Origin: Phycisphaerae bacterium
Lineage (GTDB): Bacteria > Planctomycetota > Phycisphaerae > UBA1845
DNA: 64,000 nt
Assembly: GCA_029260075.1 (NCBI GenBank)
Contig: JAJDDY010000023.1
Location: 186,001-250,000, forward strand
Reading direction: 5' to 3'
In this document: in pieces, positions 7,446 to 31,613 of the stretch
Layout: each line of letters opens with the position of its first letter
Position numbering within the stretch: the stretch's first letter is position 1
Position numbers and translations under genes: made by a program
Notes under the pieces: generated by a model
Told to the model about the DNA's origin: nothing
Databases searched by the model: none
What the model saw: only the letters and a program-made list of their open reading frames with translations

Positions 7446-7469
7446 CGAATATCAGACACCCCCGCCTAG

Positions 7470-7633: not shown

Positions 7634-7635
7634 CG

Positions 7636-8490: not shown

Positions 8491-8557
8491 GTCAAATCAA
8501 TCCAGTCGCCATCTGCGCCTCAAGGTATCTGAGTACGTGTCTTAGAAGCCTCTTTCA

Positions 8558-8623
8558 GAGCCGCGCCCGTAAGGAAGCGGTCCGCTTTCCTGGGCGAAAA
8601 CCGCTCCCTCACGGTCGCGGCTC
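8558..8623. repeat. R1 palindromic element, copy 3 (core)
   Basis: GAGCCGCGCCCGTAAGGAAG is paired with a right arm ending ACGGTCGCGGCTC. Flanks are of the subtype starting with an AAGCCTCTTTCA stretch, as in copy 1. With copy 4 it fills the 414 bp gap 8491-8904, which has no gene. Confidence 0.75.
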
Positions 8624-8796
8624 GGTTTGACGCAACCCTTCCCAAACACGCTCTGAGGACAATCTTTGCTTATCGATACTATCGGACTGCAAAGGGCTGG
8701 ACTTATGAGCGAACGGGGCGCGAACAGTAACCACGTCCGGCGATCGCAACCGGTTTGGTCCTTTCTCACCCTACAAATGGCGGGTTCGTCCGATCC

Positions 8797-13104: not shown

Positions 13105-13128
13105 ACCGGTCGGAAGCCGGTGCTACAC
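13105..13128. repeat. R3 short hairpin repeat, copy 3
   Basis: This is a shorter, slightly diverged copy (ACCGGTCGGAAGCCGGTGCT...) upstream of the resB-like gene. ORF starts before it (13120) are rejected because they begin inside this repeat. Confidence 0.6.
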
Positions 13129-13278
13129 TTTTTCAACAGCCAGCTAACGCGACGGATTATCTATGATCACCTCTTGTTCTTTGTTGATGCGCCCTCTTGC
13201 TACCCGCCTATGCGTTTTGCCCGTCTCGCATTATGGGCCACCTTGGCGCCGTCGCCCGCAAGCCACTGGGTTGACCCG

Positions 13279-15645: not shown

Positions 15646-15657
15646 TGAGCGACACTC

Positions 15658-17643
15658 ATGAAATGGTATAAGCAGGTCCGACCGATCGACATCATGGTGC
15701 TCGTCGCCATCGCCGGGTACGTGGGGTACAAGGGGGCATCTCGCCCGCAACGCATGGAGCAGCAGCAGCAGGATGTGTTCGCTGTTGCGGTTGATCTGGA
15801 ACCGCTTGGGCAGATTGCCGTGCAGGCGGACGGGCGACTGCGATCGTTCGAGTCGCACGCGAGAACGTTCATGAGTTTGGTCAGCGGTCCTCGCTCGATC
15901 GACGGGCAGTCCGATGGCTTCACGTACTTGGACCTGATGTTTCGTCCCGAGCGATACGTCGATCGCGAGATCGTCTATATCAAGAATAAGCAGGTTCGCG
16001 AGGATGTATTAAAGGCCGCGACGAACAGTGGCGTCATTTCTGACGACGACGTGGCCCGCATCACCAAACGCGGGCTCGTGTCGAAGATGCTTCTCAACCA
16101 ACCCGCCGTCGGCGCTTTGATTCAGAAACTCGGCGAAGACCTGATACGCTCGGCGAAACAGGTAGACGCCATACGTTCGGCCATGCACGTTTCCGATCCT
16201 CGTTTCCTCAGCGAAGAACTGCGTTTGATGGCCCCGCCCGATGGCGCTACCGATAAGCCGTGGTACACGATGGGCCGCTTGGTTCAGTCCTCGGGCGCGC
16301 CGAAGGACAACATCCATTCCGGGCTCGGCAAACCGGCGCCGATCGATGGTCTCGACGCAGCAGCACAGCAAGAGCTCGTGAGCGAATGGTCCGCGCTGCG
16401 CCGCGCTTGGCGCGACGAGCGTGCGGACGACGTGAACACGCAGATCGCCGGCCTAGCCTCATCAATCATCAAGATCGCCGGGGACGACTACCCGTCGGTC
16501 GATCGCCTATCGCTGGAAAGCTGGTACTTTCGCAACCACAGCATGACGTGGGTTTGGCTGATCTACCTCGCCGCTGTGGTTCCGCTCTTGATGTCCGTGA
16601 TCTACAAGTGGGACGGGGCACGAAAGGTAGGCCTGGTACTGTTCATTGTCGCGTTCGGTTTCCATACGTCGACGCTGATCATCCGTTGGTATATCTCGGG
16701 GCGATGGCCGAACTCAAACATGTTTGAAGCCGTCACTACGTCCGCTTGGTTCGGCGGCGTCGGAGCGCTCATATTGGAGTGGGTGACCCGACGGACTCCA
16801 CTGCGCAACGTATTCGCGCTAGGCTCTGCGGTGATGTCCATGGCCGCACTGATGGCTGCTTACTTCCTGCCCACCGAGCTTAGCTCCGGAATCGGGAATA
16901 AGATGGCGGCGCTCAACGATGTTTGGCTGTACATTCATACGAACATGATCATATGGAGCTACGGGATCATTGGTCTCGCGTGCATCCCAGCATTGTTGCA
17001 ACTGCGACATCGCTGGTGTCTCGCGTGGGATGAGCGGTCGATCCCGAAGTTGCGACTCTTCATCCTGCCGATCGCCATGGTCGTGGCGAACTACACGGGC
17101 TACCGTCTTTTGATGCACGCATTGGACGACCCGGCGCGGGCGCTTACGGGTAACACCCTCTTAGGCATGGCCGGCGCGTTTTGGGGATCGCTCATGGTGT
17201 TGATTTTGGAATGGGTATCCGCGAGCGAGCGGGGTGCTTCCGGGTCGCGGTCGGAGCGAGGATCGTCAGGCGGTGCATCGTCGTTGATTTTGGGTCGCGG
17301 CGGGGGGGCGTCGTTTCTCACAGCCGAGCGGCCGACAGTCAGCCAAGTGTACGACGGCGCCACTATGGTCCTGGTCGAATTGTCGTTCATCATGCTTTGG
17401 ACGGGCATCATCATGGGTGCGATTTGGGCGGATCATTCCTGGGGTCGACCTTGGGGTTGGGATCCGAAAGAAGTTTTTGCGCTCAATACGTTTCTGATCT
17501 TCCTCGTGTTGATTCACGTGCGGTTGAAAGTCAAAGACCGGGCGCTGTGGACCTCGATCATCGCAGTGCTAGGGTTTGAAGTAATGATGTTCAACTGGAT
17601 CGTCGTCAACTTCGTCATCACCGGACTGCACAGTTACGCCTAG
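15658..17643 (+). CDS. ccsA: CcsA-like cytochrome c biogenesis / heme handling protein
   Basis: The 661-residue protein has one N-terminal helix, a large extracytoplasmic region (about residues 40-290), and then about eight transmembrane helices. The tryptophan-rich heme-binding WWD motif is clear: WGRPWGWDPKE near residue 600. It exports and attaches heme to apocytochromes with ResB. Typical CcsA is about 300 residues; the additional 290-residue N-terminal domain is unusual and I cannot assign it. Cytoplasmic Ser/Gly-rich residues (about 520-555) form a low-complexity loop. It sits 12 bp after resB and 2 bp before mqnE. Confidence 0.88.
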   Translation: MKWYKQVRPIDIMVLVAIAGYVGYKGASRPQRMEQQQQDVFAVAVDLEPLGQIAVQADGRLRSFESHARTFMSLVSGPRSIDGQSDGFTYLDLMFRPERYVDREIVYIKNKQVREDVLKAATNSGVISDDDVARITKRGLVSKMLLNQPAVGALIQKLGEDLIRSAKQVDAIRSAMHVSDPRFLSEELRLMAPPDGATDKPWYTMGRLVQSSGAPKDNIHSGLGKPAPIDGLDAAAQQELVSEWSALRRAWRDERADDVNTQIAGLASSIIKIAGDDYPSVDRLSLESWYFRNHSMTWVWLIYLAAVVPLLMSVIYKWDGARKVGLVLFIVAFGFHTSTLIIRWYISGRWPNSNMFEAVTTSAWFGGVGALILEWVTRRTPLRNVFALGSAVMSMAALMAAYFLPTELSSGIGNKMAALNDVWLYIHTNMIIWSYGIIGLACIPALLQLRHRWCLAWDERSIPKLRLFILPIAMVVANYTGYRLLMHALDDPARALTGNTLLGMAGAFWGSLMVLILEWVSASERGASGSRSERGSSGGASSLILGRGGGASFLTAERPTVSQVYDGATMVLVELSFIMLWTGIIMGAIWADHSWGRPWGWDPKEVFALNTFLIFLVLIHVRLKVKDRALWTSIIAVLGFEVMMFNWIVVNFVITGLHSYA

Positions 17644-17645
17644 CC

Positions 17646-18917
17646 ATGACGACAGCCGCTACAGTAGACTTGTTCGCCCGGGTGCGCGCCAAGCTCGACG
17701 CTGGTGAGTCGCTTTCGTTGGAGGACGGCGTCGGGCTCTACGACTCGAGCGACATCCACACGCTGGGCGAGTTGGCCAACTCCGTGCGCGAGCGACGGCA
17801 CGGGCGCCGCACTTACTACAACATCAACCGCCATATCAACTACACCAACTATTGCGTGCTTCGATGCAAGTTCTGCTCGTTCTACCTGCCCTATCCTCGA
17901 AAGAAATCTGAGCCGCTGACCTCGACGCGTGAATCGGCGCTCGCAGTGAGCGATCCGTCGAGTGTTGCGAACGGCGCGGGGTACGAGCTACCCGTGGATA
18001 CGATTGCACGCCAAGCTGCACATGCTTACGCGCGCGGTGCGACTGAAGTTCACATCGTCGGCGGCTTGCACCCCAAGCTGCCGTTTTCGTATTACACTGA
18101 CATGTGCAGCGCCATTCGCGACGCGTGCCCACACATGCACATTAAGGCCTTCACCGCGATCGAAATCATTCACTTCACGCGTATCGCCAAGCCCCGCCGT
18201 TCCATCGCCGACGTCTTGACGGCGCTGCGCGACGCGGGGCTGGGTAGCATGCCCGGCGGCGGCGCGGAAATCTTCGACGATCGCGTACACGACGAAACAT
18301 TCAAGAACAAGGTCGGCGAAGTGGAGTGGTTCGAAGTTCATCGAACAGCCCACGAATTGGGCATCTTCACGAACGCCACCATGCTCTATGGGCACGTGGA
18401 AACGCGCGCGGAGCGCGTCGGCCATCTGATCAAACTGCGCGAACATCAGTCAGACAGCTTGAGCACGCGCGAGGCGCACTTCAACTGTGTCATTCCACTG
18501 TCATTCATTCCCGACGACAGCGACCTTTCTCATCTTCCCGGACCCGGTGGCTTGGAGGACTTGAAGACGCTCGCCTTGGCACGCTTGATGTGTACGAACA
18601 TCCCGCACATTAAGGCGTTTTGGATCATGCAGACACCCAAGCTGGCGCAAGTGTCGCTGAACTGGGGCGTGGACGACTTCGACGGTACGGTGGTCTACTA
18701 CGACATTACGAAGCGAGAAGGAGGCGGTTCGACTCATCAGGAACTCACCGTCGACAAGCTCAAACGGCTCATCGTGGAGGCGGGGTGCGAGCCGGTCGAA
18801 CGAGATACGCTCTATCGGACTGTCGATCGCACGGCGTCATCTTGGCGAGTCGAGGGCGAGCCGTGGTCGGTAACGTATTCGCCAAACGAGGCGTCCTGCA
18901 GCGTCCCGCCGGGTTAG
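17646..18917 (+). CDS. mqnE: Aminofutalosine synthase (radical SAM, menaquinone biosynthesis)
   Basis: The 423-residue cytoplasmic enzyme joins a radical from SAM to 3-(1-carboxyvinyloxy)benzoate to form aminofutalosine, an early step of the futalosine menaquinone pathway. The cluster motif is C70, C74, C77 (CVLRCKFCSF), with the glycine-rich VGGLHP motif and MPGGGAEIF, typical of the MqnE/MqnC group. The order and length fit MqnE best; MqnC is the alternative. A polar insertion of about 25 residues after KKSEP (residue 88 on) is notable. It starts 2 bp after ccsA, linking quinone synthesis with cytochrome c maturation. Confidence 0.88.
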   Translation: MTTAATVDLFARVRAKLDAGESLSLEDGVGLYDSSDIHTLGELANSVRERRHGRRTYYNINRHINYTNYCVLRCKFCSFYLPYPRKKSEPLTSTRESALAVSDPSSVANGAGYELPVDTIARQAAHAYARGATEVHIVGGLHPKLPFSYYTDMCSAIRDACPHMHIKAFTAIEIIHFTRIAKPRRSIADVLTALRDAGLGSMPGGGAEIFDDRVHDETFKNKVGEVEWFEVHRTAHELGIFTNATMLYGHVETRAERVGHLIKLREHQSDSLSTREAHFNCVIPLSFIPDDSDLSHLPGPGGLEDLKTLALARLMCTNIPHIKAFWIMQTPKLAQVSLNWGVDDFDGTVVYYDITKREGGGSTHQELTVDKLKRLIVEAGCEPVERDTLYRTVDRTASSWRVEGEPWSVTYSPNEASCSVPPG

Positions 18918-19640: not shown

Positions 19641-20153
19641 CTAGTACGTATTGTAGTCGACGGTCTTCTCGTCAGCTTCGCCGACGTTGCAGTTTCCGAT
19701 GACGACACCGGTGTCCGTACTATAGACCCAGCCTTCGCCTGTGGCTTGATAGGCGGGCGCGCCGGTCACAAGTTTGATCGTGGTCTTGCCCTTGTTGGCG
19801 CACACCGACAGCGGAGGGAACCCACCACGTAGGTACGGTCCAAAAATGTGCGTTCCCGCGACCGTTCCAACAGCGCCGCCGACGTCGGTCTTCTTGGTCA
19901 ACTGATCAACGAGGGTGACCGCGGTGTCGCCGACCTGATCGGCTGGGAAGCTTCCGCCATGCTCCGCAGCGTACATGTCGATCGCGTTCCGAAGGCCGGC
20001 CAGTGAGCCGCGGAGTGCGGAATCACCTGCACCCTTGGCGCCGCGGCTGATACGGGGCACGGCGATGGCGGCGATGACGCCGATAATCACGACGACGATC
20101 ACCAACTCTACGAGACTGAAGGCACGCATTTTCGATTTCTTGATGAACATCAT
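19641..20153 (-). CDS. Type II/IV pseudopilin (GspG-like major pilin)
   Basis: The 170-residue protein has the class III signal and hydrophobic helix of type IV pilins: KMRAFSLVELVIVVVIIGVI, with the conserved Phe/Ser, and Glu5 of the mature protein. Prepilin peptidase would cut before the Phe. The globular part has two Cys (SVCANK, GNCNVG) that likely pair. It is the last gene of the minus-strand assembly cluster, 220 bp after the previous gene, so it may have its own promoter. It would form the pilus or pseudopilus fibre. No prepilin peptidase is in the window. Confidence 0.88.
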   Translation of the reverse strand: MMFIKKSKMRAFSLVELVIVVVIIGVIAAIAVPRISRGAKGAGDSALRGSLAGLRNAIDMYAAEHGGSFPADQVGDTAVTLVDQLTKKTDVGGAVGTVAGTHIFGPYLRGGFPPLSVCANKGKTTIKLVTGAPAYQATGEGWVYSTDTGVVIGNCNVGEADEKTVDYNTY

Positions 20154-20373
20154 GTACTCACAGTTTGGTTAAGCTCTTGGACGGACGCGCGCGCGTCATA
20201 CAACAAACACACTACGATACCTAACATATCGTGGGCGCATACCCGCAACTTGAGAAACCATTCTGATCGGGTGAAGAAAGACGAGTCTAGCGTTGCGGCG
20301 CGCAGAACTGCGCAGCACGCGCCGCACGTTTCCCATGCTGTGGGACGCCTACGTACGGCTTATCCGACGCAAC

Positions 20374-20907
20374 TCACGGTTCCGGCGACACGATTGTAAG
20401 CTCGGCTTGACCGTCTCGACACTCGAAGATTACGCTATCCTGAAAGATTGAGACAGTCTTGCACCCGTCGAGTTCGTCGTTGACGTGAATCCACCGCCCG
20501 TTGACGACGGCAACTCTCAGCCCTTGCTGTACCATAAGCCCGTCGAGCCGGTGTTGCGTCTGAAACGTATCCACGTCGTCCGGCTGAATACGGGAAAGAT
20601 CCCCGGCACCTTGGTTATCTCGCCGCGCGGATTGCGTCGCGTCGCGCGGTGGCTCGAAAAGATCGCGTGTGGGCGTGTTCTGGGCGGATGGCTCTTGGAG
20701 TTTTGGGAACGGGATGTCGGGAATCAACGCACCCGACGAGGTGTCGTCTGCAACCGATGGGCTCAGCGGACCATCGGGACTCACCGTATATGCGACGGCG
20801 GATTCTGGTCCGCCGCCACCGTCTTGGAGCAAGACGCGGTCCACGATGAGCACGACTCCGCCCACCGCCATGATGATCAAATAGGAATTGCGTTTCTTTG
20901 CGGACAT
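20374..20907 (-). CDS. PilP/GspC-like single-pass assembly protein
   Basis: The 177-residue protein has an N-terminal membrane helix (about 9-26), a disordered Pro/Asp-rich stretch and a small C-terminal domain of about 70 residues (from DVDTFQTQHRLDGLMVQQG) that looks like the beta-strand-rich HR domain of GspC/PilP. This is inferred from position after PilO and domain layout, with weak sequence similarity. Its ATG shares an A with the pilO-like stop (TGATG). Downstream is the pseudopilin. Confidence 0.65.
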   Translation of the reverse strand: MSAKKRNSYLIIMAVGGVVLIVDRVLLQDGGGGPESAVAYTVSPDGPLSPSVADDTSSGALIPDIPFPKLQEPSAQNTPTRDLFEPPRDATQSARRDNQGAGDLSRIQPDDVDTFQTQHRLDGLMVQQGLRVAVVNGRWIHVNDELDGCKTVSIFQDSVIFECRDGQAELTIVSPEP

Positions 20908-21497
20908 CAGACGCCGTGCCCCGTCCCAGTCGAACCCACCGGGTTCGAGTACATGCTGATCGTCAAGCTGGCGACTCGATCGCTACCGGCGACACTTTGG
21001 TCGATGTTGCGGTAGATTTTCAGATAGCTGACGTCGGCCCAATACTTCGACTCCTCGATGTCGGCTAGGAACGCGAGGATGTTCGGCGTCGGACCGGAAA
21101 CGTCAAAGGTATACCGTTGTTCCAAGAGTCCCGCGTAGTCTCTGGAACTGAGCGGAAGGTGTCGTAGCACACGCAGGTTTCTGTTCCGCGCGGTCGTCGA
21201 CAGAAACTGAAAATAGTCTTCAACGCGCGCCACGGCGGGGAGCGAACCGGATTCCGCCAGTTCGTCGCGGGTTGCACCTATCGCCTTCGTTTGGGCAGTA
21301 ATGCTGTTGTGGACGGCGATCTTTTGACGCTGCAACGTTTGCATTTTACGCCGAGACGTATTGAGTTCCTGGCTCGCCACATTGGTGCGGATCATCGTCA
21401 GCCAAACGAAGCCGCCAAGGCAGCACAGGACGGCGCACGCGCCGACCACGTCGACAATCATCGTTGATGAGTCGCTCTTCGTACGCATGATTACCAT
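20907..21497 (-). CDS. pilO: PilO-like inner-membrane assembly protein
   Basis: The 196-residue protein has a short N-terminal cytoplasmic part, one membrane helix (about 14-34), a coiled coil (SQELNTSRRKMQTLQRQKIA) and a ferredoxin-like C-terminal domain. This is the PilO/GspM layout. Position directly after a PilN-like gene supports it. ATG 21488 (MRTKSDS) is an alternative start that avoids the 7 bp overlap with pilN. The ending TGATG couples it with the next gene. Confidence 0.75.
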   Translation of the reverse strand: MVIMRTKSDSSTMIVDVVGACAVLCCLGGFVWLTMIRTNVASQELNTSRRKMQTLQRQKIAVHNSITAQTKAIGATRDELAESGSLPAVARVEDYFQFLSTTARNRNLRVLRHLPLSSRDYAGLLEQRYTFDVSGPTPNILAFLADIEESKYWADVSYLKIYRNIDQSVAGSDRVASLTISMYSNPVGSTGTGHGV

Positions 21498-22102
21498 TCA
21501 CACAATAGTTCAAAGTTGAAATACATGCCGTCCAGGACCGGCTCACGACGTGAGTGCGTGAGTTTGACACTAGTGAATGCATTCGATTGTTTGACGGCGG
21601 TCACGAATTGATACGGTTCGGACGGGTCCTTTGCGAACCCCACGATCTTCAAGCGCCGCGGCGCCTCAAGTGCGACGGCGGTTATTGGGGCGGTCTTGTC
21701 GTGCTTCGCCTTCGGCGCGACGGACCCGGTCGGAGCTACGGGATCAGTAGAGACGGACGTGAGCCACGAGCCCTCGGGAAGGCAGCGTCCGATGAGGGCG
21801 AAAACATCTGACCAAGCCCGTTTGGACCGTAGCGCGTTGGCCCGCTCTACGCGGCCTTGTACAACGCCCAGCTCAGCGGTCAACGCGCCGAGTTTGGTTT
21901 GATCCAACGCCAAGCTCGTTCGAAGGTGATCCACATGCGTCTGTAGTTTCTCAGTCTCGCCGCGACGGTACGTTTCGAGAACGATCGGCGTGGTGACCAT
22001 TCCGGCGGAAACGGCCACGGGAATGATCCACGCCTTCAGGCGGCGTCGCATCGCGCGCTTCGACTGGATCCGAAATGGGATGAGATTAATGCCGATGGTC
22101 AT
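21491..22102 (-). CDS. pilN: PilN-like inner-membrane assembly protein
   Basis: The 203-residue protein begins TIGINLIPFRIQSKR, the conserved N-terminal INLLP-type motif of PilN that binds PilM in the cytoplasm. One membrane helix (about 24-44), a coiled coil and a periplasmic ferredoxin-like domain follow. The ATG overlaps the stop of pilM as ATGA. The product bridges the cytoplasmic PilM and PilO. Confidence 0.85.
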   Translation of the reverse strand: MTIGINLIPFRIQSKRAMRRRLKAWIIPVAVSAGMVTTPIVLETYRRGETEKLQTHVDHLRTSLALDQTKLGALTAELGVVQGRVERANALRSKRAWSDVFALIGRCLPEGSWLTSVSTDPVAPTGSVAPKAKHDKTAPITAVALEAPRRLKIVGFAKDPSEPYQFVTAVKQSNAFTSVKLTHSRREPVLDGMYFNFELLCEW

Positions 22103-23205
22103 AAGCTTCTTGGTTCCATAGAGAGTCCGGTTGCTGTGGCCAGCACCTCGATGGCCTGTCGCTGGGTAGCGCTGTAGCGCAGGCGGCAGGTCTCGGACTC
22201 CAAGTAGTCAGACGCACGACGCACGGTGATACCGAGTTGGTCACTGAACAATTCGGGGAGGTTTAGCATGAGCGCGCCGCCCCCGGTCAGGACCAAGTCG
22301 CCGGCCTTATGATCGCGGTAGCAACTGAGTACATACTCATAAGACCGCTTGATCTCGGCGGCGACTTCTCGAAGTTCCGGCCGAAGCGATCCGAGGATGA
22401 TCGCTGCGACTTCTCGATTGGTGCGCGACGCCGAAGTCGATCGATCGTCGGTGTTCACTGCTGCGATACCGTGTTCGCGTTTGTGAAGCTCGGCGGCTTT
22501 TTGACTCAGTTGCAGCGACTCAGCCACACGCCTCGTCCATTCTGCACCTCCGTGTCCAACGCGACGAATGAGCACCGGCGTGTCGTCGATACATAGAATG
22601 AGCCGTGCCTCGGCATGACCTATGTCCAGAACACCCACGACCGCATCGGTAGGCCAATGACATAGCAACCCGACGAACCGCGTGAGCGCCGTGGCGCCTG
22701 CGTCAATGCGTCGGCAGGAGACTCCTGTGGCGTCGCACAGGGCGAGCGATTGCAACACCGACTCACGTTTGGCGTTGGCGGCCATTACGCTGGGTCCGGG
22801 GCCACCGGTCGGAGGCAGCCTCCAGTGCCTACACTCCCAGTCCGCGATCGACGTGTCGACAAGACGTTGCAATTCCGCGCGCAACACTTGCTGCACTTCC
22901 TCACGCGGGGCGTCCAAAACCGCGCTGGGGAGCTCAAGCGTGTGGAATTCGACGTCGGGTGAGTTGATCGCTACAGGTAAGTTCCGCCGACCGAACTCGC
23001 CGTCACGCACGCAGGTTCGCACGATTTCCGCCATTGGGCGTTCTGATTCCCTGTCGCCGTCGGTCTCTAGGCGCAGCGAACGTACGGAGACAGCCCGTAG
23101 CGAGAATCGATCGTGCTCGCGTCGCCATTGAACGGCGCGCACCGCCGTTTTGCCGATGTCAAGACCGACGCACGTGGACGCGGGTTGTCGAAAAGTCAGT
23201 GGCAT
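22099..23205 (-). CDS. pilM: PilM-like actin-fold ATPase
   Basis: The 368-residue cytoplasmic protein has the actin/FtsA-like fold. Motifs include the phosphate-1 loop CVGLDIGKTAVRAVQWR near residue 12, GVLDIGHAEARL for phosphate 2 and LVLTGGGALMLNLPELFS for the adenosine motif. PilM binds the PilN N terminus and helps couple the motor to the platform. It starts 18 bp after gspF and overlaps pilN by 4 bp. Confidence 0.88.
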   Translation of the reverse strand: MPLTFRQPASTCVGLDIGKTAVRAVQWRREHDRFSLRAVSVRSLRLETDGDRESERPMAEIVRTCVRDGEFGRRNLPVAINSPDVEFHTLELPSAVLDAPREEVQQVLRAELQRLVDTSIADWECRHWRLPPTGGPGPSVMAANAKRESVLQSLALCDATGVSCRRIDAGATALTRFVGLLCHWPTDAVVGVLDIGHAEARLILCIDDTPVLIRRVGHGGAEWTRRVAESLQLSQKAAELHKREHGIAAVNTDDRSTSASRTNREVAAIILGSLRPELREVAAEIKRSYEYVLSCYRDHKAGDLVLTGGGALMLNLPELFSDQLGITVRRASDYLESETCRLRYSATQRQAIEVLATATGLSMEPRSL

Positions 23206-23223
23206 GGCGTTGGCGTCCTGGAA

Positions 23224-24441
23224 CTATTGCAAGGCGGCAGTGAGATCGAATAGGGGTAGGAACAGCGAAATGGCAACGCCACCCACCATAAACCCGAGCC
23301 CAATGAGTATGATCGGCTCAACGAGCTTCATCGTTGTGTCAATCAGCTCCCCGTTTGTTTCGTCCAATAAATCCGCTGAATACGTCAAAGCGCCGCCCAT
23401 ACTGCCGCTTTGCTCGCCGGTCTGTATGGCCTGGCAGATGTACGGTTGAATGAGTCCCGACTGTTCAAACGTCGGCGCGAGGTCGCCGCCTCCGGTCACG
23501 GCGTCCTCCACATCAATGAATAGACGTTGAAATCGGCGGTTTTTTGTCGAGCTTCGAACCAAGTCTATGCTTTCGAGAATGCTTACGCCGCTCTCCAACA
23601 ACATGCCGACCGTGCGAAATATTTGGGCCTGAATGAGGGCGCCCCGAAGGCGCCCAAGACCTGGGACCACGAGTTGCATGTCTGACAACCATTGGCGACC
23701 GCGACGGCTCGCCAACAACCAAGCGATACTCAAGACGACCGCGACGGCGGAAACGCTCAGGAGCGGCCAGTGCTGGAGGAAAGTTTCGGATGTGGCCAGG
23801 AGCATTTTTGTGCTGGCCGGTGGGTCGACGCCAAGCTGGTCGAACATGCCCGCAAACCTGGGAATCACAAAGAAGAGCATCGTCGCCAAGATGTTGACGG
23901 ACATGCAAGTCAAAAGCGACGGGTAGGCCAACGCTCCGATCACTTTGTTACGTAGCGCTCGCCGCTTTCCGACCATGACGGCGAGGCGCTCGAACATTTC
24001 GGTGAGCGCTCCACTTGCCTCGCCCGCGGCGATTACCGCGCAGTACACAGGATCGAACGTGCGCGGATGTTTCTGGAGCGCCTCGGTTAGACTCGATCCC
24101 TCTTCGAGATCGTCGACGAGCTCTTGAAGCAAGGTCGCCTGCGCAGGCTTCTTCATTTGCTTCTTGAGGCCGATCAGTGCCGGCACCAATCCGCTTCCAG
24201 CGCGAAGCAACATTGCCACTTGGCGCGTGAAGACCGCCAATGCTTTGAGCGACAGCCCAGCGCCTCGCCGTGACGCGGTCTGACTATGGCCTACGGACTT
24301 CCCTTCGGCTTGCTCCTCGATCTTGGTGATGTAAAGTCCCTGGCGCCGAAGCTGCTCGATCGCCTGTCCGGCGTTCGGTGCTTCCACCGAATCCTTCGAG
24401 CGTATGCCGTCGTCGCTAATGGCTTCGTAGGTCAGAATCAT
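23224..24441 (-). CDS. GspF/PilC inner-membrane platform protein
   Basis: The 405-residue protein has two repeated GspF domains and three transmembrane helices. Conserved pieces are VFTRQVAMLLRAGSGLVPAL in the first domain, and the second-domain copy FRTVGMLLESGVSILESI; GEQSGSMGGAL is also typical. It forms the platform on which the ATPase works. The N terminus (MILTYEAISDDGIR) is the usual short beta start. It begins 2 bp after gspE. Confidence 0.92.
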   Translation of the reverse strand: MILTYEAISDDGIRSKDSVEAPNAGQAIEQLRRQGLYITKIEEQAEGKSVGHSQTASRRGAGLSLKALAVFTRQVAMLLRAGSGLVPALIGLKKQMKKPAQATLLQELVDDLEEGSSLTEALQKHPRTFDPVYCAVIAAGEASGALTEMFERLAVMVGKRRALRNKVIGALAYPSLLTCMSVNILATMLFFVIPRFAGMFDQLGVDPPASTKMLLATSETFLQHWPLLSVSAVAVVLSIAWLLASRRGRQWLSDMQLVVPGLGRLRGALIQAQIFRTVGMLLESGVSILESIDLVRSSTKNRRFQRLFIDVEDAVTGGGDLAPTFEQSGLIQPYICQAIQTGEQSGSMGGALTYSADLLDETNGELIDTTMKLVEPIILIGLGFMVGGVAISLFLPLFDLTAALQ

Positions 24442-24443
24442 CG

Positions 24444-26216
24444 CTAGAGTCCATCAATCGTGTCTTCGCTCAGCCCGACACCGCACGGATTGCCGGTGCT
24501 GATTGCTTCGGATCGCGTCACGCGAAGCACTTCTTCCAACGTCGAGTCGCCGCGCTCGACCACATCGAGCGCCTTGTGTCTTAGTGATCGCCATCCGGTT
24601 TCCGCCAGATAGATGCGTATGTCTGTTTCCGATTTTCGCTGTTGCGTAGCCTGCTTCAGTTCGGCGTCCATGAGCATGACCTCATAGATGCCTACGCGTC
24701 CGCGATACCCGGTATGATTGCACTCGCGACAGCCCTCTCCCTTTTGAAAGAGCTCGTTGGCCCGATGCCCCCATCCCACGTCCTCAAGGAGCGTCGCTTC
24801 GGGGTAATAGGAAGTTCGGCACGACGCGCAAATGCTGCGGGCGAGACGCTGAGCGACGACGCCAAGAAGCGACGACGCGATCAGGTACGGTTCGATGCCC
24901 ATGTCCAGCAGACGCATGACGCTACCCGGACAGTCGTTCGTGTGAAGCGTGGAGAGCACAAGGTGACCCGTAAGTGCGGCTTGCACCGCGACGCGCGCCG
25001 TGTCCTCGTCACGAATTTCGCCGACCATGACGACATCCGGATCCTGCCGCAGGATCGACCGAAGGGCCCGTGGAAAGGTGAGACCGACGCGCTCATTGAC
25101 TTGAATCTGGTTGACGAGCGGAAGCTGGTATTCGACCGGATCCTCAATTGTTACGATGTTTCTCGTCTCGTCACGCAACAAGTCCATGGCTGAATAGAGC
25201 GTGGTCGTCTTGCCGCTACCGGTCGGGCCGGTGACCAGTAGCAATCCATACGGGCTGCGAATCATAGATTCGATCGCGTCTCTGTCCTGAGACTGCACGC
25301 CAAGTTTGTTCAGTTCGAAGCTGATGTTGGACTTGTCCAGAATTCGAATTACGACTTTCTCGCCCAGCACGGTGGGCATTGTCGACACGCGAAGATCGAT
25401 CTCGCGTCCCTCCGCTACGATGTGGACGCGCCCTTCCTGGGGCAGCCGTTTTTCCGAGATGTCCATACGCCCGATGACTTTGATCCTCGACACAATCGCA
25501 CCGTGGACCCCCTTGGAGGGCTTGAACATTTCGCGGAGCTGCCCGTCGACCCGATAGCGAATGTGTGTTCCGTCACGATCGGGTTCGATGTGTACGTCGC
25601 TGGCCCCGGCGCGCAGTGAGGTCAAGATCGCGAGGTTCACGAGGTTGATGATGGGGCTTCCCTCAACCATTTGGTCAAGGTCATTAACCGGCCCCTCGTC
25701 AATGGCCTCGCTTTCCGTGATCTTGACGTCGCTATCCTCGATTGAAGCGAGGAACGAGTCGACGGTGACTTCGTCTGCGAGGTACTTGCGCTGGTACTCT
25801 CGGAGATTGTCTTCCACAACGAGCACCGGACGAATCGAACAACCCGTTAGGTTACGAAGTCGATCCAGTACAGGAAGGGATTGCGGCTCCACCATCGCGA
25901 CCGTCAGCTCGTCGCGGACGCGAAACAGCGGTAGGACGCGGTGTCGCTCAGCCTCTTCCTTAGGAACGCACTTTGCGATCTTCGGGTCGATCAAACCGTG
26001 GCGCAGCACACACCCCTTAACGCCGAGGCGCGTGGATAGTGCGTTGACGAGCATGGAGGTGGTGAGGGCGCCGGTGTCGACGAGCGCCATGCCGATGCGC
26101 CCGCCCGATTCCTGCTGTCGCGCCAGCGCAGCGACGAGCTGCTCTTCGGTGATGAGCTCATCCCGAATGAGTTGATCGCCTAGGCGAAGTGCACTTTCGA
26201 TGGTCAGGTGGGCCAT
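24444..26216 (-). CDS. GspE/PilB assembly ATPase
   Basis: The 590-residue cytoplasmic motor for pilin polymerisation or secretion has an N-terminal MshEN-like domain (about residues 10-150), a PAS-like N2 domain and a C-terminal RecA-like ATPase. Visible motifs are Walker A GPTGSGKTT (330-338), the Asp box around IEDPVEYQL, Walker B VMVGEIRDEDT and the His box LSTLHTND. A tetracysteine zinc site is present (C463, C466, C496, C499). MshEN domains in some family members bind cyclic di-GMP, which is interesting given the HD-GYP and GGDEF genes just upstream. It begins 109 bp after the STAS gene. Confidence 0.92.
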   Translation of the reverse strand: MAHLTIESALRLGDQLIRDELITEEQLVAALARQQESGGRIGMALVDTGALTTSMLVNALSTRLGVKGCVLRHGLIDPKIAKCVPKEEAERHRVLPLFRVRDELTVAMVEPQSLPVLDRLRNLTGCSIRPVLVVEDNLREYQRKYLADEVTVDSFLASIEDSDVKITESEAIDEGPVNDLDQMVEGSPIINLVNLAILTSLRAGASDVHIEPDRDGTHIRYRVDGQLREMFKPSKGVHGAIVSRIKVIGRMDISEKRLPQEGRVHIVAEGREIDLRVSTMPTVLGEKVVIRILDKSNISFELNKLGVQSQDRDAIESMIRSPYGLLLVTGPTGSGKTTTLYSAMDLLRDETRNIVTIEDPVEYQLPLVNQIQVNERVGLTFPRALRSILRQDPDVVMVGEIRDEDTARVAVQAALTGHLVLSTLHTNDCPGSVMRLLDMGIEPYLIASSLLGVVAQRLARSICASCRTSYYPEATLLEDVGWGHRANELFQKGEGCRECNHTGYRGRVGIYEVMLMDAELKQATQQRKSETDIRIYLAETGWRSLRHKALDVVERGDSTLEEVLRVTRSEAISTGNPCGVGLSEDTIDGL

Positions 26217-26325
26217 GAGTATCTGCTTACGTCACTAGCGCAATCCGCCAGTTCATTTACGACTGAGGCCGATATTTCCGTGGAAGCGTCCGCTGTGTGT
26301 TCAGTCAGCACGCCGTACCGTGTGT

Positions 26326-26661
26326 CTACAGAAAACTCCGGACCGCGTCCTGAATGTCTTCAAACAATCCAAACCGGCTGGATACGCCGGTCATCTCAAG
26401 TACTTCCCTACACGTCACGGGGACCTGAACGAGCTTCAAGTGTGTCGCGCGACCGGCCAGTTCATCCGTCGCGTCGAGAAATCCCTCGACGGCCACGCTG
26501 TCCAGGTAGGGGACTTCCTTGAGCGATACGACGAGTCGGGTGTTGGGCGACTTGACGCGATCGTTGAGCATGTTCGCGAACTCTGTCGCGTCTTGATCGA
26601 CGAGCGGTCCGATCGGGGTCAAGACATCCACAGTGCCCATTTGATGTTGTTCGATTTTCAC
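26326..26661 (-). CDS. STAS-domain anti-sigma-factor antagonist-like protein
   Basis: The 111-residue STAS domain has the conserved phosphorylatable Ser in YLDSVAVEGF (S55), as in SpoIIAA/RsbV. Partner switching with a kinase is the usual mechanism. No RsbW-type kinase is adjacent, and the nearby histidine kinase is of another kind. Its ATG overlaps the stop of the GGDEF-like gene (ATGA). It could tune the activity of the assembly motor or a sigma factor; this is inference. Confidence 0.85.
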   Translation of the reverse strand: MKIEQHQMGTVDVLTPIGPLVDQDATEFANMLNDRVKSPNTRLVVSLKEVPYLDSVAVEGFLDATDELAGRATHLKLVQVPVTCREVLEMTGVSSRFGLFEDIQDAVRSFL

Positions 26662-27998
26662 GAGCAGGCCACTCCCACGGATTCAGGGGTGTTCCAATCG
26701 CTGGCCAACACAACGTCATCGCGTCTGGCGCGACGACACTGATGCACGGCACGCGTGATCAGTGCTCTCAGTTCAGGCATATCCGAGCCGCTTCCCGCCA
26801 ACCCGCAACGCACGCGGACCGTTCCGCGCTCTCGATCAACTGAACACTGTGCGCGAATTCGGACGGCGAGCTGGTTGATGATCAATGTCGCAAGTTCTGG
26901 GTCGACACGCCGCAGCATCAGCAGCAGTCGCGACCCGTCGAAACGGCCAACAACGTCATCAGCGCGAAGCTTAGCCAGTACCGCGTCACCTACCGATCGC
27001 ATTAACTCATCTGCCGATTCCCATCGTCCGCTGTCGTTGATGGCCCGGAGACCTTCGAGATCCAAGACAGCCACCGCGACCGGTTCGCCGTCCTTGTATG
27101 ACTGACGGAGCGCGCGTTCGCTCGCGGTCAAGAATGCCGATCGCGTGCGTAGCCCAGTCACCGCATCGATTTCCGTCGCAGTCTTCGAATGCACGCCGTA
27201 ATGAAGTGTGCGCCAAAACAAATTGACAAGTTGCTCCGCACCACTCAGTCGCGAGCGGGTATTATGCATTGACATGTCAACATGACCGGCGGAGACGATT
27301 CCGCACCGCTTCTCCCCGATGCGAATCGGAAAACTCCAGGCGATCGGCTCGCGACCATTGGCCGCGAACTCGGACACCGTCGGATCATCATACGGTACGC
27401 CGCAAAAAAGATATGGGCGGCCGCTTGTGAGCACGTGCCCTTTGATTCCAAGCCGCGCCGGAATGCACTCCTTGCCGGCGAGCGAGTCGCCGGTGTGCAG
27501 GGGCTCCAACTGTTGTCCGTCGCCGAGAAGACGAAAGGACTTAACGTGCGTGGCGCCGCAGCTCTTGAACAGCACGCTCCGGATAAACCCGTCGAACGCG
27601 GGCCAGGGATCAACATCGTCGACATGTTCGGCTAACCAGTCATCAAACCGGTCAATCGTGGCGCCCAATAGGGTCGAAACGTCGTGATCCTTTGCCCCGA
27701 TTTCAGTAGCGTCCCGCGGCGATTGCGCTGGGGGGGCTGTTTTCTTACTGTCGTCTGGCGACGCGGTGCAACTCGTCCAAAGACCCATCGTAGCGATCGC
27801 TACGCTGCCTGCGACCATCGTCGCGACGGTCCAACCACTATCCCATAGTTCGGTGCCCATAGACGCTTGAACCAAGACGGTCCAGAACAGTGCGCAGAGT
27901 ATGCCTAGGCCCAAGCCTCGCGGGTGGCCGACCAGCCGGCCGCCAACGGCGGTCGCAAGGATGATCGGGAACCATGGAAGTAGTAGCGTCAATGTCAC
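26658..27998 (-). CDS. Membrane GAF protein with degenerate GGDEF domain
   Basis: The 446-residue protein has two or three N-terminal helices (about residues 1-78), a GAF-like domain (about 105-270) and a GGDEF-type domain (about 275-430). The signature is destroyed: GRFDGS (351-356) stands where GG[DE]EF is expected, and the metal-site DxDxFKxxND is changed to LDLEGLRAIND. It should not make cyclic di-GMP and may bind it or act as a scaffold. Start is GTG 27998 with GGAG about 8 nt upstream, 18 bp after the HD-GYP gene. Confidence 0.82.
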   Translation of the reverse strand: MTLTLLLPWFPIILATAVGGRLVGHPRGLGLGILCALFWTVLVQASMGTELWDSGWTVATMVAGSVAIATMGLWTSCTASPDDSKKTAPPAQSPRDATEIGAKDHDVSTLLGATIDRFDDWLAEHVDDVDPWPAFDGFIRSVLFKSCGATHVKSFRLLGDGQQLEPLHTGDSLAGKECIPARLGIKGHVLTSGRPYLFCGVPYDDPTVSEFAANGREPIAWSFPIRIGEKRCGIVSAGHVDMSMHNTRSRLSGAEQLVNLFWRTLHYGVHSKTATEIDAVTGLRTRSAFLTASERALRQSYKDGEPVAVAVLDLEGLRAINDSGRWESADELMRSVGDAVLAKLRADDVVGRFDGSRLLLMLRRVDPELATLIINQLAVRIRAQCSVDRERGTVRVRCGLAGSGSDMPELRALITRAVHQCRRARRDDVVLASDWNTPESVGVACS

Positions 27999-28016
27999 CG
28001 TAGAGCTCCAAACGTT

Positions 28017-29282
28017 TCATCGTCGCCGTTCGGTGGTTTCGGAGAAGGCGTTGGCTTCGATTTGCATCTTCGCCCATCCGTCCGAGTGGTTTTCGAGTCT
28101 CGGGCGCATGAGCCGGTCGAACGCTTGCTGCAAGCGTGCGTCGACGGCTGAGTCGGCATCGATCTCGAGAATCTTCAGCGCCTTTGGCCAATCGAAGGCG
28201 CTACGGTATGAACGGCTGGACGTCAGCGCATCGAACACGTCCGCAATCTGAATGATTCTCGCTTGAAGAGGAATGTCTTCGCCAGCCAAGCCGTGCGGAT
28301 ACCCCGTGCCGTCGTACCGCTCGTGATGATGGAGCACACCGTCTAGTGCGCCGGCCAATTGCGGAATCGCCTTGACCACTTCGTAGCTTCGCTCCGGGTG
28401 CTCGTTGATGTGTGCACGTTCTTCGTCCGTCAGCTTGCCGGGCTTGTTCAAAACGTTGTCTCTGATGCCGATCTTGCCAACGTCGTGCAGCAGGGCGCTC
28501 CATTGGAGCTGCTGTAAACTCGACCCTTCGACTCCAATATCGCGGGCCAACAGGGTTGAGTAGTAAGCCACGCGAAGGGAGTGACCGGACGTGTACTCAT
28601 CCTTCTGGTCGATGGCGCTGACCAGTGATCGCACCATTGAGAAAGACATGTCGCGGAGCTCGCCGACCAAGTGGTGGTTGCGGATCAAGTCGCCACAGAA
28701 GGTCAAAAGCGATTCGAGCAGGTTCATGTCACTGGCACGAAAAGCGTTGACGTCGGGCGTTCGCGTGACCACGATGGCGCAAACGAGCGAGTCGCCGGCG
28801 AAGATCGGCCCGATCATCACCTCCGACACGGAGGCTGGCATCGCGCCTCTCGGGACGGGTTCAACGAGCACGGTCTTGCGATCGCAGGACCGCTTCACCT
28901 GTTGCTGAAGCCACGACATTTGATTGGAAGATGTGTTGTCGTTGAGGTAGACGCTCGCCACTTCGTAGTGTCCGAAACTGCGGTAGAAGCTCTCGACAAG
29001 AAGGTCGACGACGTCGGATTCTGACTCCACGCCAGCAAGCTTGTGTGTTACTTCGAACACGATCCCGAGTTGTTCGTACACGTTGACGAGCTCGTTAGCC
29101 ATACCCTCGTTCTCAGATTCGAGGCGGGCGAGCGTTTCAGTAATCTGATTAAGGGGTTGTTCCCACGACGCCCGACCGCCGGACTGTTCCAGCGCACCGC
29201 GCACCATCGCAAGGGCCTCATGTACGGACCCGACCGAGTCGCTCTTGGTTCTGGAGAATGCCTGAACCGTTGATTCGATCAA
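28017..29282 (-). CDS. GAF/HD-GYP cyclic di-GMP phosphodiesterase
   Basis: The 421-residue cytoplasmic protein has a helical N terminus, a GAF-like domain (about 80-220) and an HD-GYP domain. The metal and signature residues are intact: SGHSLRVA, LLHDVGKIGI, EHPERS and HHHERYDGTGYP. It should hydrolyse cyclic di-GMP. I place the start at the TTG 29282, where TTGA overlaps the stop of the response regulator and GGAGG lies 8 nt upstream; the longer frame from 29417 lies wholly inside the regulator gene. Confidence 0.87.
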   Translation of the reverse strand: MIESTVQAFSRTKSDSVGSVHEALAMVRGALEQSGGRASWEQPLNQITETLARLESENEGMANELVNVYEQLGIVFEVTHKLAGVESESDVVDLLVESFYRSFGHYEVASVYLNDNTSSNQMSWLQQQVKRSCDRKTVLVEPVPRGAMPASVSEVMIGPIFAGDSLVCAIVVTRTPDVNAFRASDMNLLESLLTFCGDLIRNHHLVGELRDMSFSMVRSLVSAIDQKDEYTSGHSLRVAYYSTLLARDIGVEGSSLQQLQWSALLHDVGKIGIRDNVLNKPGKLTDEERAHINEHPERSYEVVKAIPQLAGALDGVLHHHERYDGTGYPHGLAGEDIPLQARIIQIADVFDALTSSRSYRSAFDWPKALKILEIDADSAVDARLQQAFDRLMRPRLENHSDGWAKMQIEANAFSETTERRR

Positions 29283-29665
29283 TGGGCTACCTCCTCGGAC
29301 TTGTGTGCACCGATTAATCGTTCGATGTTTGCCACCAAACGTGAGGGTACGAACGGTTTCGCGTAAAGCTGCACACCGAACGGTTCCATCTTGTTGCGCA
29401 AATCTTCCTGGTCGCACCGGGCGGTCATGAGCATGAACGGCGTGTTGAGGCTGCGCTCAGTGCGCACCGCCCGTAGCAGCGCCAGGCCGTCCATCTTGGG
29501 CATGTTCATGTCGGAGATGATCAAGTCCACCGCGTGATCCTTCAAAATCTCGAGCGCGACGGCACCGTTGTTGGCCTCCAACACTTCGTGACCGTGACGC
29601 CCGATCCAAAGCGTCATGACGCGCATGATATGTACCTCGTCTTCGACGATCAGAATCTTAGCCAT
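29279..29665 (-). CDS. Single-domain response regulator (CheY-like)
   Basis: The 128-residue receiver domain has the acidic pair in VEDE, phosphoacceptor D52 in IISDMNMPKMDG, T81 and K103 in YAKPF. With no output domain it must act by protein contact, perhaps on the HD-GYP protein encoded next, or as a phosphorelay stage. It overlaps the histidine kinase by 8 bp and the HD-GYP start by 4 bp. Confidence 0.9.
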   Translation of the reverse strand: MAKILIVEDEVHIMRVMTLWIGRHGHEVLEANNGAVALEILKDHAVDLIISDMNMPKMDGLALLRAVRTERSLNTPFMLMTARCDQEDLRNKMEPFGVQLYAKPFVPSRLVANIERLIGAHKSEEVAH

Positions 29666-31613
29666 CGGTCGACGCCTCCTCGTTTGTAGTCAGTGACGCG
29701 GCGCGGGTTTGATGTCTCGGTAGTCGAACTAGGAACGTGGAGCCTTGCCCGAGATCGCTTAGCAATTCGATGTCGCCACGATGGCGCTGTACGATTTCGC
29801 GGGCGGTGTACAGACCGATCCCAGTACCGGACTCGTGCTTGACGGCCTCGCTGTTGGCTCGTTGGAACTTGTCGAAGATGCGCGAATGGTCGTCCGCGGC
29901 GATGCCGATCCCATCGTCCTTGAAGGATAGAACGACGGCGTCCGGTTCGAACTTGCATCCACAAACGACGTGGCCCGACTCCGCCGTGTACTTCACCGCG
30001 TTGCCGAGTAGGTTGTTGATCACGATCGCCAGCTTGTCACGATCGCCTCGAATGGGTTCCATCTTCGACGGTATCTCAAGTTGAAGGTCGATGTTCTTCT
30101 CGTCCGCGAGACCCTGTAGGTCGCGAACGCCCTCCGAGAGCAACGTCTTGAGGTCCACGTCTTCGATGCGTAGTTCGATCGAACCGACTTCGATCTGCGA
30201 TACGCTCAGAATGTCCTCCACGAGACGCGACAGGCGGCGCGTTTCCTTCGTGATGACGTTGTAGCATTCGCTGATGATCTTGGGATCGTCGAACATCCCG
30301 CTGGAAAGCGTTTCCGTGTAGGCGCGAATGTTTGTGAGCGGTGTGCGCAGCTCGTGCGTAACCTGCGTGATGAAGTCTTCGCGGGCTTTGTTGGCGCGAA
30401 TTTGCTGACTAACGTCACGAACAACGACCAAGCATTCGCCGGACCGTTGCGGGCGGTGCAGCGGTACGATGCTTATGCGATGAGCATCCCCGTGCGTGCC
30501 CTTGCCGCTGTTTCGCTCAATTGTCTTGGTGATCGATTCGCACCGGCCGTCCGAATGAGCGGCCTCTCGGAGTAGGCTGAGTACCTCTCCACTGTACTTC
30601 GACCCTGCGTCGGGGATCGTCGTAAACTTCATATCTTCTTCGGTCCATCCGAAAAAGCGAATGGCGGCGGTGTTGGCATACTTCAGAGACGATCCGTCGC
30701 TGACATAAAGTATTCCGTCCGGCAGGGCGTTCAGTGCGTCGGCAAGCGCTCCTCCACCCGAGTGCTCTAGCGCCTTGGTGAGTTCTCGAGCAGCCTCAGA
30801 TTGCTGAACCGTGGACGTAAGCTCTTGCGTAAGGTCGATCAATTCGTTCCATGCCGATGTGACGCGATCTTGCGTATCCGCAATCCGTAGCGATTCCAGC
30901 TCGTTGCCAAGGTGATCGCGATGAAGCGTCAGGCGATCCGCGATCTTGGATACACCGCGAAGTTGCTCACGCAGACATCGGTAGACGAGAAAGAACGCAC
31001 CCAAGACAGCCAGAACAATCACGAGCCAACCGGCGTTGCTGGAGGGGTTTGACGATCCCGCGACGCGCAGAGGGAGATACACCTCCACGAACCACTGCGG
31101 CTCCGCCGCGTCGGTTGTGCTCGTTGTGGTTTGGTCATCCGAATCGCGTTCCACGAGCTCTGCAATCGGATCGATTCTCAGTGCCGCGCGGACCACCCCA
31201 GTGGACGGTGGGCCGGTAGCCGTGTCGGGATCGTCTGATTCTCCCGACCCTCGCGGTGCGGCGTCCGTAACCCACGGAAGGTTTGATGCAACGACGTGGC
31301 CGTTTGCGTCGACGACTTGGGATTTGGCAGCCGGCAGGCTGTTGGCGGCGTCAACCAGCACGCGCGTCATCGCATCGAGAACCGCCGATTCGGACGGTTC
31401 GGTTCTCCTCAGCGTGGACAAGTGGTCCGCCAACAGCTCGACCGCAACGCGTGTACGTTGCTGTAGAAACTCATCGCTTTGGTCGCGGGCCTGTCGAATT
31501 CCGTATTCTGCGACGGAGCCAAGGCCGACCAAATAGATCAGCACCATCGAGAGTCCGAACCAGCGCGGAACCTCTTCGCCTGTTAAGAATCGACGTACGG
31601 ATTGTCCAATCAA
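29658..31613 (-). CDS. Membrane sensor histidine kinase with PAS domain
   Basis: The 651-residue kinase has TM1 (about 17-39), a periplasmic sensor of about 150 residues, TM2 (about 194-213), a HAMP-like/helical linker, a PAS domain (about 290-400), HisKA with H420 in THELRTPL, and HATPase_c. ATP-lid motifs are clear: NNLLGNAVKY (N box), FKDDGIGIAADD (G1) and GTGIGLY (G2). It heads the minus-strand cluster. The sensor part is rich in Asp/Thr/Pro and gives no hint of ligand. The upstream 31614-31929 region is a divergent gap with no gene. Confidence 0.9.
   Translation of the reverse strand: MIGQSVRRFLTGEEVPRWFGLSMVLIYLVGLGSVAEYGIRQARDQSDEFLQQRTRVAVELLADHLSTLRRTEPSESAVLDAMTRVLVDAANSLPAAKSQVVDANGHVVASNLPWVTDAAPRGSGESDDPDTATGPPSTGVVRAALRIDPIAELVERDSDDQTTTSTTDAAEPQWFVEVYLPLRVAGSSNPSSNAGWLVIVLAVLGAFFLVYRCLREQLRGVSKIADRLTLHRDHLGNELESLRIADTQDRVTSAWNELIDLTQELTSTVQQSEAARELTKALEHSGGGALADALNALPDGILYVSDGSSLKYANTAAIRFFGWTEEDMKFTTIPDAGSKYSGEVLSLLREAAHSDGRCESITKTIERNSGKGTHGDAHRISIVPLHRPQRSGECLVVVRDVSQQIRANKAREDFITQVTHELRTPLTNIRAYTETLSSGMFDDPKIISECYNVITKETRRLSRLVEDILSVSQIEVGSIELRIEDVDLKTLLSEGVRDLQGLADEKNIDLQLEIPSKMEPIRGDRDKLAIVINNLLGNAVKYTAESGHVVCGCKFEPDAVVLSFKDDGIGIAADDHSRIFDKFQRANSEAVKHESGTGIGLYTAREIVQRHRGDIELLSDLGQGSTFLVRLPRHQTRAASLTTNEEASTDG

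Follow-up and report, generated by a model that had tools for sequence, protein, structure and literature searches.

A putative c-di-GMP-gated type IV filament machine with a dedicated five-gene switch in a Phycisphaerae bacterium

Why does a set of two-component, c-di-GMP-related and STAS genes lie directly beside the motor gene of a pilus-like machine? Pilus and secretion motors and their regulators are usually studied separately, and the locus described here places them side by side. Reading the open reading frames of the window (the whole 64-kb stretch of DNA analysed) gave twelve adjacent genes, all on the minus strand and running from 31613 to 19641, in the order histidine kinase, receiver, HD-GYP, degenerate GGDEF, STAS, MshEN-GspE, GspF, PilM, PilN, PilO, PilP-like protein and prepilin. 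Together with the frames and coordinates, the Pfam matches among these genes (HisKA with HATPase and PAS, Response_reg, HD_5/HD-GYP, GGDEF, STAS, T2SSE with MshEN, T2SSF, PilM_2, PilN and N_methyl) bear out the earlier note, which had described a twelve-gene minus-strand cluster joining signalling to a pilus platform. Overlaps of 8 bp (histidine kinase/receiver), 4 bp (receiver/HD-GYP, counting from the TTG start at 29282 and not from the longer GTG frame) and 4 bp (GGDEF/STAS) tie the signalling genes together, with an 18-bp gap from the HD-GYP to the GGDEF gene. A gap of 109 bp separates the STAS gene from gspE, after which come gaps of 2 bp (gspE to the GspF gene) and 18 bp (GspF to PilM gene), overlaps of 4, 7 and 1 bp (PilM/PilN, PilN/PilO and PilO/PilP-like) and 220 bp before the pilin gene. 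A promoter and terminator scan returned one promoter-like site where chance alone would give 3.6, a number uninformative about transcript units.

The sensor histidine kinase (651 aa; 29658..31613) has Pfam PAS, HisKA and HATPase_c domains and, by hydropathy, transmembrane segments at about residues 17-37 and 190-216; the His of its H-box (HELRTP) was kept in 41/41 sequences. The stand-alone receiver (128 aa; 29279..29665; Pfam Response_reg) has no output domain, and its phospho-Asp was kept in 40/40. The HD-GYP phosphodiesterase (421 aa from the TTG; 28017..29282; Pfam HD_5, 1e-39) carries the metal and active-site motifs HDVGKIG and HHHERYDGTGYP..GL, and HD and HHE..GYP are kept in relatives. 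The membrane-anchored GGDEF protein (446 aa; 26658..27998; Pfam GGDEF; two predicted transmembrane segments) is degenerate, having DGSRL in place of GGDEF at the A-site and RADD at the I-site; the canonical GG(D/E)EF catalytic motif was absent from 39/39 members of this family, most of which keep the RxxD I-site. Nearest to gspE, the STAS-domain protein (111 aa; 26326..26661; Pfam 9e-12) has the Ser of the DS motif, phosphorylatable in SpoIIAA/RsbV-type switching, which was present in 73/73 sequences.

The motor is a GspE/PilB-type assembly ATPase of 590 aa (24444..26216; Pfam T2SSE and MshEN). Its N-terminal domain, previously called MshEN-type, passes the NCBIfam model of MshE-type c-di-GMP-binding domains (NF053729, score 54.2, cut-off 38) and shows the 24+5+24 layout, its 24-residue motifs at 11-34 and 40-63 being separated by a 5-residue spacer. 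MshE-type domains have been found to bind c-di-GMP in vitro (PMC5013675; PMC4624772). The domain departs from the consensus at three residues, G10 to E in motif 1 and L2 to I and Q24 to R in motif 2, and its c-di-GMP affinity may therefore be altered, a point that we counted against c-di-GMP gating. The ATPase scored below the curated NCBIfam cut-offs for GspE (570/630 bits) and PilB (575/676 bits). Since Aeromonas MshE likewise fails these ATPase cut-offs, scores below the GspE, GspD and GspG cut-offs in this system mean only that a protein is not canonical. The platform proteins are the inner-membrane GspF/PilC (23224..24441; Pfam T2SSF, 2e-47), the actin-like PilM (22099..23205; PilM_2, 1e-22), PilN (21491..22102; Pfam PilN, 1e-6) and PilO (20907..21497). 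The PilO-slot protein of the window had no Pfam match, and its AlphaFold model matches Pseudomonas aeruginosa PilO (2rjz, E 2e-5, probability 1.0); in locus L127, the same slot holds a Pfam PilO. The product of 20374..20907 is probably a PilP/GspC-like inner-membrane protein, judging by its slot, one transmembrane segment (7-30) and a weak CdsD_C match (7e-4). A PilMNOP platform is thus present, with PilM and PilN identified by Pfam, PilO by fold and PilP by position and the weak match.

Neither a secretin nor a prepilin peptidase gene lies inside the cluster, as had been noted, and the earlier description of the system as incomplete for a T2SS or type IV pilus does not extend to the genome. 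The suggested genome search for a secretin and pilD found both types outside the cluster: a matching pair of secretin and TPR protein occurs at C89, an operon of minor pseudopilins at C8 and a PilD-type peptidase at C86. The secretin scored below the NCBIfam cut-offs for GspD (198/351 bits), PilQ (203/284) and MshL (125/250). A separate PilB/PilT/PilC-like cluster is also present in this genome, at C21. Co-loss of the secretin with the core cluster was considered and rejected: one family without the core cluster (f8) keeps the secretin (about 50% identity, 14/14). In that family it sits on contigs carrying the paralogous GspE, and some relatives hold it inside a paralogous set; therefore, the secretin does not belong to this cluster alone, which was also counted against c-di-GMP gating.

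The same-strand order from histidine kinase to pilin recurs in 40/40 relatives inspected across the order, single genes being undetected in a few, and the linkage of signalling to pilus genes is therefore far beyond chance. In all 40 loci, histidine kinase, receiver and STAS genes lie beside the ATPase gene, so relatives carry these pilus genes with the signalling genes rather than always without them, and the linkage proposed in the earlier note stands. In the ATPase trees, all sampled ATPases that have a histidine kinase and receiver, or a STAS gene, upstream group in a single clade (support 0.99; SH-aLRT 95 in the second tree), whose members come from Planctomycetota, Schekmanbacteria, Desulfobacterota and Proteobacteria. 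Bacilli PilB, E. coli GspE and both MshE and ExeE of Aeromonas fall outside it, and none of the remaining pilus ATPases in the sample had the signalling set next to it. The Aeromonas locus L204 is the MSHA locus; L207/L208, an interrupted PilB-like gene beside PilA- and PilC-like genes, was for that reason left out as MshE reference. Arrangements of the same kind occur in Duganella, Oceanisphaera, Desulfobacula and Schekmanbacteria, which overturns the suggestion of a planctomycete-specific machine. The phosphodiesterase slot is filled by GAF-GGDEF-EAL in Gammaproteobacteria and by GAF-HD-GYP elsewhere; such filling of one slot by different domains was counted in favour of c-di-GMP gating. HD-GYP is missing in family f2, and HD-GYP and GGDEF were undetected in the Phycisphaerae loci L097-L105; thus, part of the clade does without the c-di-GMP enzyme, which was counted on the opposite side.

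Considering these results, we propose, with a probability of roughly 0.62, that the locus belongs to a complete T2SS/MSHA-related type IV filament machine, with a distinct ATPase lineage, a c-di-GMP-gated motor and a dedicated five-gene switch. At the sequence level, this reading is supported by the clade-bound linkage, the MshEN score, the kept active sites of the kinase, receiver and HD-GYP enzyme, the lost GGDEF motif and the invariant STAS Ser. We infer every signalling step, the binding of ligands, direct contacts between the proteins and the function of the filament as follows. The cluster would form the inner-membrane and control core, its five signalling genes serving as the switch of the GspE motor. 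The membrane kinase, through a periplasmic sensor region, would phosphorylate the receiver, which together with the HD-GYP enzyme would set the local c-di-GMP level; the degenerate GGDEF protein may be an I-site c-di-GMP sensor or a scaffold, and the STAS protein may be the adaptor nearest the motor. Binding of c-di-GMP to the MshEN domain would then allow the filament to extend through the secretin, whose gene lies at a different locus.

Among known systems, the MSHA pilus of Vibrio and Aeromonas (mshI-J-K-L-M-N-E-G-F-B-A-C-D-O-P) shares PilN/PilO-like proteins, a secretin, a TPR protein, an MshEN ATPase, a GspF-like protein and a similar order, a likeness clearest in the paralogous sets, where the secretin and a protein of about 435 aa directly precede STAS-E-F. 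In contrast, Aeromonas MshE lies outside the ATPase clade (support 0.99), the MSHA operon stretch compared has no HK-RR-HD-GYP-STAS set, the window genome's secretin reaches 125 bits against the MshL cut-off of 250, and the cluster pilin is probably GspG-like. The type IVa pilus (PilB, PilC, PilMNOPQ) resembles the cluster in its PilMNOP platform, PilB-like ATPase and PilQ-like secretin and differs in that the cluster has no PilT and that ATPase and secretin do not reach the thresholds for PilB and PilQ. In Desulfobacterota, the Geobacteraceae Pul/OxpG systems are described as atypical machines of T2SS-like kind that have several pseudopilins; in the sections of that paper used here (PMC3543383), a signalling module is not reported, the comparison being by description.

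Whatever controls it, the machine may secrete proteins like a T2SS rather than display an adhesive pilus, a reading to which we give somewhat less than an even chance. The T2SS (Gsp/Xcp) shares with it the ATPase, GspF, minor pseudopilins, a secretin and probably a GspG-like pseudopilin fold; it differs in that canonical T2SS operons are not known to carry a signalling module and that E. coli GspE and Aeromonas ExeE lie outside the clade. The major prepilin or GspG-like pseudopilin (170 aa; 19641..20153; Pfam N_methyl) gave an AlphaFold model of pLDDT 87 that fits GspG proteins best in VIA-align (Z 5.0-7.5, all below 8, vs at most 3.3 for type IVa pilins); Foldseek of this model, the less informative of the two comparisons, gave no match at E <= 0.001. 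The minor-pseudopilin set at C8 and the lack of PilT among the twelve genes point the same way. However, PilM and PilN are separate genes in place of a fused GspL, and the ATPase, secretin and pilin all miss the curated GspE, GspD and GspG cut-offs (37.7/88.9 bits for the pilin). One minor pilin, moreover, has a large domain common to Gammaproteobacterial minor pilins bearing carbohydrate-binding modules (the 440-aa minor pilin had no PDB sequence match and no Pfam match), and the best-known case of MshEN gating is an adhesive pilus, MSHA.

As to control, the STAS Ser could be phosphorylated and dephosphorylated as in SpoIIAA, directly freeing or blocking GspE, with c-di-GMP secondary. STAS-GspE-GspF is the tightest linkage and persists in a paralogous set that lacks histidine kinase, receiver and HD-GYP; several Phycisphaerae have the ATPase beside a histidine kinase and STAS without HD-GYP or GGDEF, and the genome encodes one strong RsbW-like (HATPase_c_2) kinase candidate, at C9. 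These observations and the invariance of the Ser favour such a partner switch, but none of the twelve cluster genes encodes an HATPase_c_2 kinase or a PP2C phosphatase, and the DS motif in STAS domains is also structural; we regard it as unlikely. Still less probable is that the signalling module acts on transcription or on c-di-GMP throughout the cell and not on the motor, sharing only a co-expressed regulon with its pilus neighbours, since, although the phosphodiesterase could act on a global pool and 109 bp precede gspE, the receiver has no DNA-binding domain and the set follows a single ATPase lineage through several phyla, staying in the cluster when the secretin and minor pilins are elsewhere, as in this genome, a constancy also counted in favour of the c-di-GMP-gated machine.

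In the open-access literature, we found no paper joining a STAS domain, GspE and type IV pili, and none joining HD-GYP, STAS, GspE, histidine kinase and Planctomycetes; the main text of PMC6668835 does not mention Planctomycetes, HD-GYP or histidine kinases. That the signalling module stays with one motor branch from planctomycetes to proteobacteria points to a class of filament machines that has drawn little notice and has a built-in switch. More tentatively, and at less than even odds, this may be a separate class, present in Planctomycetota, Desulfobacterota, Schekmanbacteria and Proteobacteria, in which a dedicated STAS adaptor and c-di-GMP act directly on the ATPase to control it, under a two-component sensor. 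If true, the pilus would have a hard-wired post-translational on/off switch, which we found described for no known T2SS, type IV pilus or MSHA system. One motor lineage keeps the sensor-receiver-phosphodiesterase-STAS set across phyla; therefore, gene order can serve to predict a regulator together with its target, and such predictions can be tested in relatives that grow in culture, Duganella aceris and Oceanisphaera psychrotolerans. The c-di-GMP-gated machine would also suggest what MshEN ATPases may do in Planctomycetota, of which we found no described case in the literature searched. It would further provide a candidate direct STAS target that is not an anti-sigma factor and a likely surface machine in the Phycisphaerae, a group represented here mostly by metagenome-assembled genomes.

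The twelve genes described in the earlier note were all present on the minus strand, from 31613 to 19641, and the domains it had named were confirmed. The window is C16:186001-250000 of a 4.92-Mb genome in 93 contigs. The HD-GYP frame overlaps that of the receiver by 4 bp when started at TTG 29282, most likely its start codon, and 220 bp separate the pilin gene from the preceding cluster gene. The first protein encoded after PilN had no Pfam match, and its AlphaFold model matched Pseudomonas aeruginosa PilO (2rjz, E 2e-5); the next is PilP-like, judged by its position, one transmembrane segment and a weak match. Beside the cluster, the plus strand (13120-18917) carries genes for cytochrome c biogenesis that resemble ResB/CcsA, together with a radical-SAM gene resembling menaquinone-pathway MqnE; these were read from translations only.

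The close relatives that have names are Phycisphaerae MAGs. Of 114 genomes from the order, 83 by our count carry a GspE orthologue with 56-79% identity, which is absent from family f8. Around GspE in 40 loci (20 from the window's family and 20 from other families of the order; contig ends truncate some), same-strand HMM matches were found for the histidine kinase, receiver (weak in L045), STAS and GspF in all 40, for HD-GYP and GGDEF in 38 each, and for PilM, PilO and PilP in 39, PilN in 38 and pilin in 36. Beyond the order, profile searches of 80 loci from the genome collection found a similar module preceding GspE in Schekmanbacteria (L106), Deltaproteobacteria (L109), Desulfobacula (L131), Duganella aceris (L132), Oceanisphaera (L124) and other Planctomycetota (L126, L127, L129).

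All ATPases with an upstream kinase and receiver or STAS fell into a single clade (60 rows, support 0.99) in a FastTree of 116 ATPases; since these were chosen for their similarity to GspE of the window, those outside the clade are under-sampled. IQ-TREE recovered the same clade (SH-aLRT 95, 87 rows). Three members were untagged: L098, which in fact has kinase and STAS, L122, whose contig begins too near the ATPase, and L156. Kinase and receiver or STAS occurred in none of the 56 rows outside, a few of which had a lone GGDEF or HD-GYP match. The GspE of E. coli, the MshE of Aeromonas and the PilB of Bacilli fall outside the clade. With a profile of the cluster kinase, most ATPase-adjacent kinases scored at least 196 bits (three of 74, 95-146) and non-adjacent ones at most 164, except in L098, where a merged frame conceals the adjacency.

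The earlier note had considered the machine incomplete, which was not borne out: a secretin, minor prepilin-like genes and a PilD-type peptidase lie on other contigs, and the machine is complete but scattered over the genome. Among four secretins, that at C89:85403-87322, followed by a TPR protein gene as in relatives, has 42-49% identity to secretins that in families f3 and f7 adjoin the cluster and are encoded on the other strand, and has orthologues (50-66%) in most f1 genomes. Other relatives have this secretin within a paralogous set, PilMNOP-secretin-TPR-like protein-STAS-GspE-GspF; because no ATPase of this set was found in the window's genome, the C89 secretin was assigned to the cluster by elimination, together with adjacency in relatives. 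The second set in other genomes of the family (L187-L191), likewise paralogous to the cluster, pilin/PilM-N-O-P-secretin-~435-aa protein-STAS-GspE-GspF, lacks kinase, receiver and HD-GYP, and STAS still adjoins its ATPase. Contig C37 (L084:6690-11198) carries a 1503-aa secretin-type frame preceded by one of 2213 aa; such long frames recur, at about 1,100-1,840 aa in the window's family and about 4,300-5,200 aa in f8. On contig C48 (L087:9558-18249), the gene of one more secretin (1076 aa) shares an operon with that of a PilM-like protein of 671 aa, a further pilus-type system. Five prepilin-like genes on C8 (L216: 9729-10283, 9195-9719, 8671-9198, about 7445-8767 on the minus strand, encoding a 440-aa minor pilin, and 6970-7608) correspond to genes that in many relatives immediately follow the major pilin gene. 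The 502-aa peptidase (C86, L201:9109-10617) has a long insertion between its N-terminal domain and last catalytic region, owing to which its Pfam Peptidase_A24 score is below cut-off.

The ATPase, secretin and pilin all scored below curated component cut-offs for T2SS, T4aP or MSHA. The closest known system is MSHA by layout, T2SS by pilin fold and T4aP by platform genes, and the cluster is filed within the type IV filament superfamily as a new variant; no description of the module was found in the open-access papers searched. The 4.9-Mb record NZ_AP026896.1 (L204, L207, L208), labeled an Aeromonas caviae plasmid, carries pilus loci that look like the set of a chromosome, and a transposase gene interrupts its PilB-like gene. 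The major pilin model (pLDDT 87) aligned best with GspG pseudopilins (Z 5.0-7.5; type IVa pilins, at most 3.3), a likeness that is suggestive only, as are all alignments with Z under 8. The 440-aa minor pilin ends in the genome's one copy of a domain some 210 aa long, without Pfam or PDB sequence matches, which also occurs in minor pilins of the Gammaproteobacterial clade members L113, L116, L118 and L119; further loci listed for it are L073, L080 and L064. L113 and L116 minor pilins also bear CBM96, and in L116 (15892-20490) three copies of the 210-aa domain stand beside CBM96 and a laminin-G-like domain. This company favours a role in surface binding, possibly to carbohydrate.

The kinase His box was intact in 41/41 proteins, the receiver phospho-acceptor Asp in 40/40 and the STAS Ser in 73/73 across the clade, and HD-GYP motifs were retained among relatives. 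None of 39 GGDEF proteins had the GGDEF motif, a DGSRF-like motif standing in its place, and the RxxD I-site was mostly retained. The 24+5+24 MshEN layout (PMC5013675) is present in the window's GspE as RLGDQLIRDELITEEQLVAALARQ-QESGG-RIGMALVDTGALTTSMLVNALSTR, which differs from the consensus by G10 to E in motif 1 and by L2 to I and Q24 to R in motif 2; most orthologues of the order retain the motif 1 glycine, and Arg is common among them at the last position of motif 2. This GspE is above the cut-off of the NCBIfam c-di-GMP domain model, and MshE and PA14_29490 bind c-di-GMP via an MshEN-type domain (PMC4624772).

For the module, we infer signalling direction, ligand binding and protein contacts alike. 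Gammaproteobacteria have GAF-GGDEF-EAL in the phosphodiesterase slot, replacing GAF-HD-GYP, and the occupation of one slot before the MshEN motor by two unrelated phosphodiesterase domains points to a motor that would be under c-di-GMP control. STAS was not detected in the proteobacterial clade members L109, L113, L116, L118, L124 and L132. In Planctomycetota it is the motor's most constant neighbour, also in the paralogous set without kinase, receiver or HD-GYP, which makes it the leading candidate for an adaptor that would act directly on the motor.
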